From an uncultured bacterium (GTDB taxonomy: Bacteria; Bacillota_I; Bacilli_A; RFN20; CAG-826), in contig CASFQA010000001.1 in NCBI GenBank assembly GCA_949296775.1, forward strand, positions 1 through 64,000: a DNA stretch of 64,000 nucleotides, given 5' to 3'. Below are positions 52,909-54,564 of the stretch, one piece after another; within the stretch, counting starts at the first letter, position 1, and each line of letters starts with the position of its first letter. The translations under genes were made by a program, and so were the position numbers. Below the pieces are notes generated by a model. The model saw only the letters and a program-made list of their open reading frames with translations. It had not been told where the DNA came from and did no database searches.

Positions 52909-52983
52909 TGGGGTGTAGCCAAGTGGTAAGGCATCGGACTCTGAATCCGAGACGCGCTGGTCCGATCCCAGCCACCCCAGCCA
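52909..52983 (+). tRNA. tRNA-Gln (CTG) with unusual T-loop
   Basis: Acceptor TGGGGTG/CACCCCA, D-loop with GG, anticodon loop CTCTGAA with CTG, encoded GCCA. The T arm is GCTGG-TCCGATC-CCAGC, so position 55, almost always U, is C. Confidence 0.88.
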
Positions 52984-52995
52984 GTGTGAGACTTG

Positions 52996-53023
52996 ACCGG
53001 TTAGTTGACTAACCGGTTTTTTC
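52996..53023 (+). terminator. Terminator after tRNA-Gln
   Basis: ACCGGTTAG, loop TTGA, CTAACCGGT, then TTTTT. Confidence 0.9.
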
Positions 53024-53240
53024 GTGGCAGGCCGAATATTAACGCAAAACCTGCTTATAATTCTTAAAAATCGAATGATAACCGGTTTATTTGCGACGGG
53101 CTATTGCGCTTTTTTATGGCAAACGAAAGTTTTCTTTTGGCTATAGGCGATTCCGAAAAGCCGGATGTCGGCGATTCCCTCTCGACGAAGTATTTCCGGG
53201 TAATCTTGGTTCTCTATTTGCGATTGCCGACGGCGCAGAG
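53024..53240. other. Intergenic region left of the TTCCA array
   Basis: No recognisable gene. Short frames on both strands have no domain or ribosome binding site. Confidence 0.4.
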
Positions 53241-53310
53241 GATTCCATCCGCTTCCATATACTTCCAATGATTTCCAATCGCTTCCAACGTCTTCCAATC
53301 ATTTCCAAAA
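53241..53310. repeat. Seven TTCCA units with strict 10-bp period
   Basis: TTCCA starts at 53243, 53253, 53263, 53273, 53283, 53293 and 53303, each exactly ten bases after the last (complement TGGAA). The five bases between units vary. The spacing equals about one helical turn, so all units face the same side of the DNA. It lies between two terminators and outside any gene. Binding array or small RNA are possible; nothing similar is seen elsewhere in the window. Confidence 0.85.
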
Positions 53311-53327
53311 CGGTAATCGATGATAAG

Positions 53328-53349
53328 AAAAAAAGAGCCTTTCGGCCCT
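53328..53349 (-). terminator. Terminator of pepT
   Basis: On the minus strand AGGGCC, loop GAAA, GGCTCT, followed by six or more Ts (53333-53328). Confidence 0.8.
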
Positions 53350-53361
53350 TTGGTTTGGCGT

Positions 53362-54564
53362 TTAGTCGATAGCCATGATGGCCTTGACGATTTCAATCAT
53401 CAGGTTGAATTCCTTGACTGAGAGGAATTCGTAACGGCCATGGTGGTTGTAGGAACCGGTGCCCAGGTTGGGGGTGGGGCAGCCTTTGAAGGAGAAGGTG
53501 GCTCCGTCGGTCCCGCCGCGGATCGGGGGGAAGGTGGGGGTGAGGCCGAGCTTATTGAAGGCTTTGACGGCGGTGTTGATGGCTTCCGGATGCTCGTCGA
53601 TGACCTCTTTCATGTTCCGATATTGATCCTCGACCTGCATTCTGACTTGGCAGCCGGGATAACGGGCCTCGCATTCCTTGACCGCGGTCTCGAACTCTTT
53701 CTTTTGCTCATCGAGCTTCTTTTTGTCGTGGTTGCGGAGGATGTAATGCAAATGGGCTTCGGCGACGTTGCCTTCGATGCCGATGAGGTGGTTGAACCCT
53801 TCCCGCCCCTCGGTGTATTCCGGCCGCTTGGTCGCCGGCAACAGCCGATCGAACTTGAAGGCGCAGGTGCAGGCGTTGACCATTTTGTTCTTCGCCTCGC
53901 CCGGATGGATGGCTTTGCCAAGGATGGTCACCTCGACTTTGGCGGCGTTGAAGGTCTCGTAAGCGATTTCGTAGGGATCGCCCCCGTCGATGGTGTAGGC
54001 GTATTTGGCTCCGAACTTCTTCGCGTCGAAGTGGTCGGCCCCCCGGCCGATTTCCTCATCGGGGGTGAAGCAGAAGCAAATCGGGTGATGCTTGACTTCC
54101 GGATGGGAGACGAAATAGTCGAGGACGGCCATGATGATGGCGACCCCGGCTTTGTCATCGGCCCCTAAAAGGGTGTCGCCGCTGGTGACGATGAGATCCT
54201 CGCCGATATGGGAGGAGAGGATGGGGAATTCCTTTGGGTCGAGGGAATAAAAGTCGTTTAGCCTGATTGTTTTCCCGTCGTAACCCTCAATGTATTGGGG
54301 CTTCACGTCTTTGCCCGATTCCTCGGAGGCGGTGTCGACGTGGGCGTTGAGGCCGATCGGCTCGCTCCCTTCTTCCCCGTCGAGGCGACCATAGAGGATG
54401 CCGAACTCATCGATGTAAGCCTCAATCCCCATTTCTTTGACCTGCTTTAGGAGCAATTTGGTCAGGTTCAGCTCTTTGGCGGCCGAGGGGACGGTGGAAC
54501 TCGACTCGTCGCTTTGGGTGTCGATCTTGACGTATTCGAGGAATCTTTCGATTGCTTTGTCCAT
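53362..54564 (-). CDS. pepT: Peptidase T (tripeptide aminopeptidase)
   Basis: 400 residues, M20 family. Metal motifs NAHVDTA, LLGADDKAGVAI, FTPDEEIGRG and TIDGGDPYE, and the final metal histidine in YNHHGRYEFLS. IRGGTDGATFSFKG is typical of PepT. It removes the N-terminal residue from tripeptides in the cytoplasm. The ribosome binding site is a weak A/G-rich stretch (AAAGAAAG). Together with pepC on the other strand it indicates peptide use. Confidence 0.95.
   Translation of the reverse strand: MDKAIERFLEYVKIDTQSDESSSTVPSAAKELNLTKLLLKQVKEMGIEAYIDEFGILYGRLDGEEGSEPIGLNAHVDTASEESGKDVKPQYIEGYDGKTIRLNDFYSLDPKEFPILSSHIGEDLIVTSGDTLLGADDKAGVAIIMAVLDYFVSHPEVKHHPICFCFTPDEEIGRGADHFDAKKFGAKYAYTIDGGDPYEIAYETFNAAKVEVTILGKAIHPGEAKNKMVNACTCAFKFDRLLPATKRPEYTEGREGFNHLIGIEGNVAEAHLHYILRNHDKKKLDEQKKEFETAVKECEARYPGCQVRMQVEDQYRNMKEVIDEHPEAINTAVKAFNKLGLTPTFPPIRGGTDGATFSFKGCPTPNLGTGSYNHHGRYEFLSVKEFNLMIEIVKAIMAID

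Follow-up and report, generated by a model that had tools for sequence, protein, structure and literature searches.

The tRNA-Gln–pepT locus

The window, that is, the whole 64,000-nucleotide stretch of DNA that was analyzed (genome G000), carries the convergent genes tRNA-Gln and pepT, between whose terminators lies an array of short direct repeats, as the original prediction had placed it. The features are as follows, in coordinates of the window.

52909–52983, plus strand: tRNA-Gln (CTG), neighbour and likely landing site of a lost insert
52995–53018, plus strand: tRNA-Gln terminator
53101–53103, minus strand: stop codon of a gene remnant; intact homologues also end there
53110–53220, minus strand: remnant, the final ~37 codons of a gene of the AAA-ATPase_like/PD-(D/E)XK type (PF09820, 'DUF1703'), from a family-tail HMM and phmmer
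53221–53242, minus strand: approximate position of a presumed deletion junction, where the −10 box, the start codon and about 515 codons would be missing
53243–53308, minus strand: array of seven TGGAA cores in 10-bp steps, five of them TTGGAA (TTCCA on the plus strand)
53332–53351, minus strand: pepT terminator (read from 53351 to 53332)
53362–54564, minus strand: pepT (tripeptide aminopeptidase), listed as the 3′ neighbour

Seven exact TTCCA pentamers start at 53243, 53253, 53263, 53273, 53283, 53293 and 53303, in steps of exactly 10 bp, and the predicted variation of the bases between them was likewise confirmed, with nearly random spacers and a perfect core in all seven units. By searching the window for three in-phase units with at most one mismatch, 5 matches were obtained, every one within the array; 100 dinucleotide shuffles of the window gave a mean of 0.03 such matches and never reached 5. 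TTGGAA-N4 on the minus strand describes the repeat unit better than TTCCA, in that TTGGAA occurs in the five units nearest pepT and TGGAA is common to all seven. Elsewhere in G000 neither a second 3-unit TTCCA array nor another TTGGAA pair was found.

The original prediction had also held that this is not a coding repeat, which stood for the array itself but overlooked a coding remnant beside it, downstream on the minus strand, in a frame ending '...QIENQDYPEILRREGIADIRLFGIAYSQKKTFVCHKKAQ*'. A family-tail HMM, built on 22 tail sequences of PF09820-family proteins from the genus and run against all six frames of the window, matched 53104–53298 (minus strand) with an E value of 2.3e-9 (next match, 0.8). 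By phmmer, the remnant aligned to the extreme C-termini of intact PF09820-family proteins of the genus (best, residues 523–560 of 562), and like the PF09820/PDDEXK_9 proteins it has a C-terminal nuclease-domain tail that ends at the stop codon. The Pfam scan of the remnant ORF gave no match, the family link being drawn from phmmer and the family-tail HMM, and its short length of 37 residues was counted against reading it as a decayed gene. Since no PF09820 domain was matched in G000, the locus is regarded as a remnant and not as a member gene.

Comparison was then extended to those congeners with a readable stretch downstream of pepT. Most of them had pepT directly beside tRNA-Gln with a short gap and no array; the array together with a longer gap was found only in G009 (251 bp), G028 (271 bp) and G000 (376 bp), suggesting that an insert arrived in their common ancestor. 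G009 and G028 are the closest relatives (PepT 92% identical). The original prediction had proposed a search for further TTCCA/TGGAA arrays and had named absence from close relatives, together with no binding or transcript, as a sign of a chance or neutral duplication. The outcome on relatives was mixed: arrays were found in the two closest ones, though not in the rest of the own genome at the 3-unit level, and the other readable congeners had no array at this place. No remnant was detectable with the family-tail HMM in G028 or G009, so that for these two species it is the shared array that links the locus to a PF09820 gene. On visual inspection, G014 (L269) and G013 (L270) have DUF4143-type ATPase genes at the equivalent place downstream of pepT, which gives the 3′ side of pepT the look of an insertion hotspot.

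Between G000 and G028, the TGGAA positions were identical at 35/35, compared to 14/31 at the other array positions (Fisher p 1e-7) and 95/151 at fourfold sites in pepT, indicating that the core was under selection for much of the time separating them. The lengths of the G028 and G009 arrays are exactly two units apart, with the phase kept. These two loci (L371 and L372) are 98–99% identical over tRNA-Gln, the array and the end of pepT (about −350 to +250), as against mostly 76–95% nearby outside that tract, which may reflect either a recombination tract or constraint. Because the tract takes in the tRNA and the pepT end, recombination can explain it, and this identity was therefore set aside as proof of constraint.

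Intact counterparts and gene-specific arrays

Directly upstream of an intact PF09820 gene, the congener G023 has an eight-unit array of the TTGGAA type, whose last TTGGAA is the −35 box, at 17 bp from TAAAAT. At a second PF09820-family gene of G023, TTGGAA repeats are followed by TATAAT at 18 bp, and an SLFN_AlbA_2 gene of G003 is laid out in the same way, with TATAAT exactly 17 bp away. Like PF09820 promoters of the order, the window array has a gene-specific short motif at 10-bp steps, but it does not share the use of the last repeat as a −35 box 17–18 bp from a −10: no −10-like hexamer was present 16–18 bp from the array in G000 or G028, and no promoter-like site was found on the minus strand of the array region. 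In the window, the expected −10 position coincides with the presumed deletion junction. With neither a −10 there nor a gene behind it, the array is probably a relic and not an active site.

Upstream of 30 PF09820 genes of the order, whose starts were called by script so that some upstream stretches are possibly misplaced, identical 5-mers recurred at lags of 10, 20, 30 and 40 bp 141, 146, 96 and 46 times, respectively, compared to about 4–5 times in shuffles (z = 47, 54, 34 and 16). In-phase repeats were present in 24/30 of these genes and in 9/68 control ORFs (p 2e-10), the latter showing no excess at lags 10–40. The motif is private to each gene (TGTTG, TTGGAA, GGTAAC, TTGGTAAT, TGGTG, GCACC, AGTAGG and others) and only the period is common, which does not support DNA bending in general, one of the functions originally suggested. 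The other suggestion, a helically phased array bound by protein, holds as regulatory-site phasing by analogy with the promoter arrays of relatives, with binding by a protein as its conjectural part.

SLFN_AlbA_2 genes of the genus also have gene-specific arrays, at 10–12-bp steps. Arrays upstream of SLFN_AlbA_2/HATPase_c_4 genes (e.g. TTGAA, AGTTGCTCTAA, TTCCGACATTTA) were seen at L460 (11062–11123; G000:C3:56062), L388, L379, L397, L410 and others. Additional phased arrays of G000 (ACTTC, AGTGT) occur at L451 (19619–19659), L459 (8662–8701) and L449 (7145–7180); at L451 and L459 no gene is evident behind the array, and both may be orphans too.

Beyond the order, PF09820 genes (from other families of the class and from plasmids of Bacteroidota, Fusobacteriota and Clostridia) were mostly without arrays, indicating that arrays are not inherent to the ATPase family. 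When the surroundings of TTCCA arrays from beyond the genus were searched for the ATPase and AlbA_2 families, only the G023 gene appeared among the matches listed, as would be expected if the motif is gene-specific; the genome-wide 4-unit scan across bacteria gives 'at least' counts.

Similar motifs were also encountered elsewhere. Arrays of up to 7 TTCCAA units with variable spacers adjoin tyrosine integrase genes in viral and Prevotella-type contigs (L028, with PF00589, L040, L142, L144, L159, L164, L204 and L205) and are perhaps integrase arm sites or operators. In one Phaeodactylibacter MAG, long 10-bp arrays with TTCCAYRYAT-like units are numerous and spread over different contigs (L033, L066, L078, L092, L101, L108, L112, L123 and L124).

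Origin of the array and competing readings

The window array is not a housekeeping site of the host. We consider it probable that it is the orphaned promoter/operator array of a PF09820-type gene, since deleted, that was inserted between tRNA-Gln and pepT in the common ancestor of three closely related species. Such a gene would have encoded a STAND-like ATPase with a winged helix and a C-terminal PD-(D/E)XK nuclease. In intact relatives a short gene-specific motif recurs in 10-bp steps and in several cases extends into the −35 box, so that a protein lined up along one helical face would block or determine the binding of RNA polymerase, possibly as autorepression by the gene product. A later deletion would have left the array and, in the species of the window, also the last ~37 codons, with loss of function at the array.

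An array still in use without its gene appears unlikely to us, although it is the strongest of the competing readings. A protein from elsewhere, e.g. an SLFN_AlbA_2 paralogue, would bind it as a decoy or for control of a short inter-terminator transcript. Continued use would agree with a TGGAA core that has stayed perfect though G000, G009 and G028 all lack the gene here, with the contrast between core and other positions in G000 and G028, with the two-unit difference with intact phase in G028 and G009, and with eight SLFN_AlbA_2 matches in the own genome. Such a reading is opposed by the lack of any further 3-unit TTCCA array or TTGGAA pair in that genome and of a −10 or minus-strand promoter-like site at the array, and the near-identity of G028 and G009, since it also spans the tRNA and the end of pepT, may stem from recombination.

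A neutral minisatellite, i.e. a functionless 10-bp tandem duplication, is a still poorer candidate. TRF did report the array as a tandem repeat (period 10/20/30) and copy number varies among relatives, but neutral duplication does not agree with a perfect core between nearly random spacers, with the different conservation of the two (p 1e-7), or with independent loci that have the same layout at promoters.

MraZ recognizes short direct repeats with a 10-bp step, and the MraZ boxes of E. coli are TGGG-type repeats; those of Mollicutes are AAAGTG[T/G] direct repeats (PMC8475190). In Lentisphaeria and in many Bacteroidales, the matches listed include TGGAA-N5 arrays of four or more units that precede mraZ by about 40 bp (L024, L036, L038, L046, L056, L049, L090 and others; PF02381 confirmed for L038 and L049), and these are probably the MraZ box of those groups. 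An MraZ box was thus the first strong lead for the window array, but it was dropped after the mraZ promoters of the own genome and its family were read: the single mraZ of G000, like those of relatives, has AAGTGGG-type repeats at the start codon in place of TGGAA, and the array is not near the dcw cluster, so that we hold this identity to be very improbable. The least credible reading, a minus-strand transcript whose GGA every 10 nt acts as a sponge that titrates CsrA, was ruled out, as CsrA is encoded neither in the own genome nor in 30 relatives, in which positive controls were matched.

The nearest known counterparts of the array are MraZ boxes, RptR operators and TAACTGA repeats, each of which is apart in a defining feature. 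MraZ boxes share the short one-turn direct repeats and overlap an autoregulated promoter, but belong to the dcw cluster and differ in motif; the present arrays stand before ATPase-nuclease genes, each with a motif of its own. The RptR operator of a phage-defence island is likewise a direct-repeat promoter array, at genes of the defence type; a separate small repressor binds it cooperatively, and it has three 9-bp repeats each with the palindrome TAGCTA (PMC12255303). Such repeats are not found in the window array, and the present arrays have non-palindromic cores, a 10-bp step and up to 8 copies, with no separate repressor seen. The TAACTGA direct repeats of Beggiatoaceae are also short arrays upstream of genes with an obscure binder, but they are 7-bp units of one genome-wide motif beside start codons (PMC4679880), unlike the 10-bp step, the motif per gene and the position at −35 described here.

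The DUF1703 family (AAA-ATPase_like plus PDDEXK_9), which takes in both the remnant and the intact genes with arrays, expands and recombines and has an undetermined role (PMC6387759); the words 'upstream' and 'promoter' are absent from the main text of that paper. In our search of open-licence papers, no account of gene-specific 10-bp arrays on PF09820-type promoters was found.

Candidate binder and implications

As the motifs are gene-specific, the gene's own product would be the simplest binder and is our leading guess. An AF2 model of the G023 protein (L312, 556 aa; mean pLDDT 87) matched winged-helix ATPases over residues 2–405 (e.g. 2qen, Z 17.8), its nearest structures being 2qen and 2fna along with STAND proteins, followed by a domain resembling the CidB nuclease domain; a DNA-binding domain in this predicted structure is plausible. 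By sequence, no PDB chain matched the PF09820-type family. A Mantel comparison of motif and protein similarity gave r of about 0 and was counted against self-recognition.

It is possible, though we propose it tentatively, that in this order every STAND-like ATPase-nuclease gene and every SLFN_AlbA_2 gene reads its own rapidly changing pentamer or hexamer code, repeated once per helical turn on its promoter. This would amount to self-addressed regulation or self-marking with a specificity that diversifies like that of restriction enzymes, and the window array would be a fossil of such a code. ATPase-nuclease and Schlafen/AlbA_2 proteins form large families with obscure roles, for which a gene-specific promoter code would provide a handle on targets and control; orphan arrays could be used as fossils of past insertions, and the many pairs of a protein and its candidate DNA site would be on offer for learning a recognition code.
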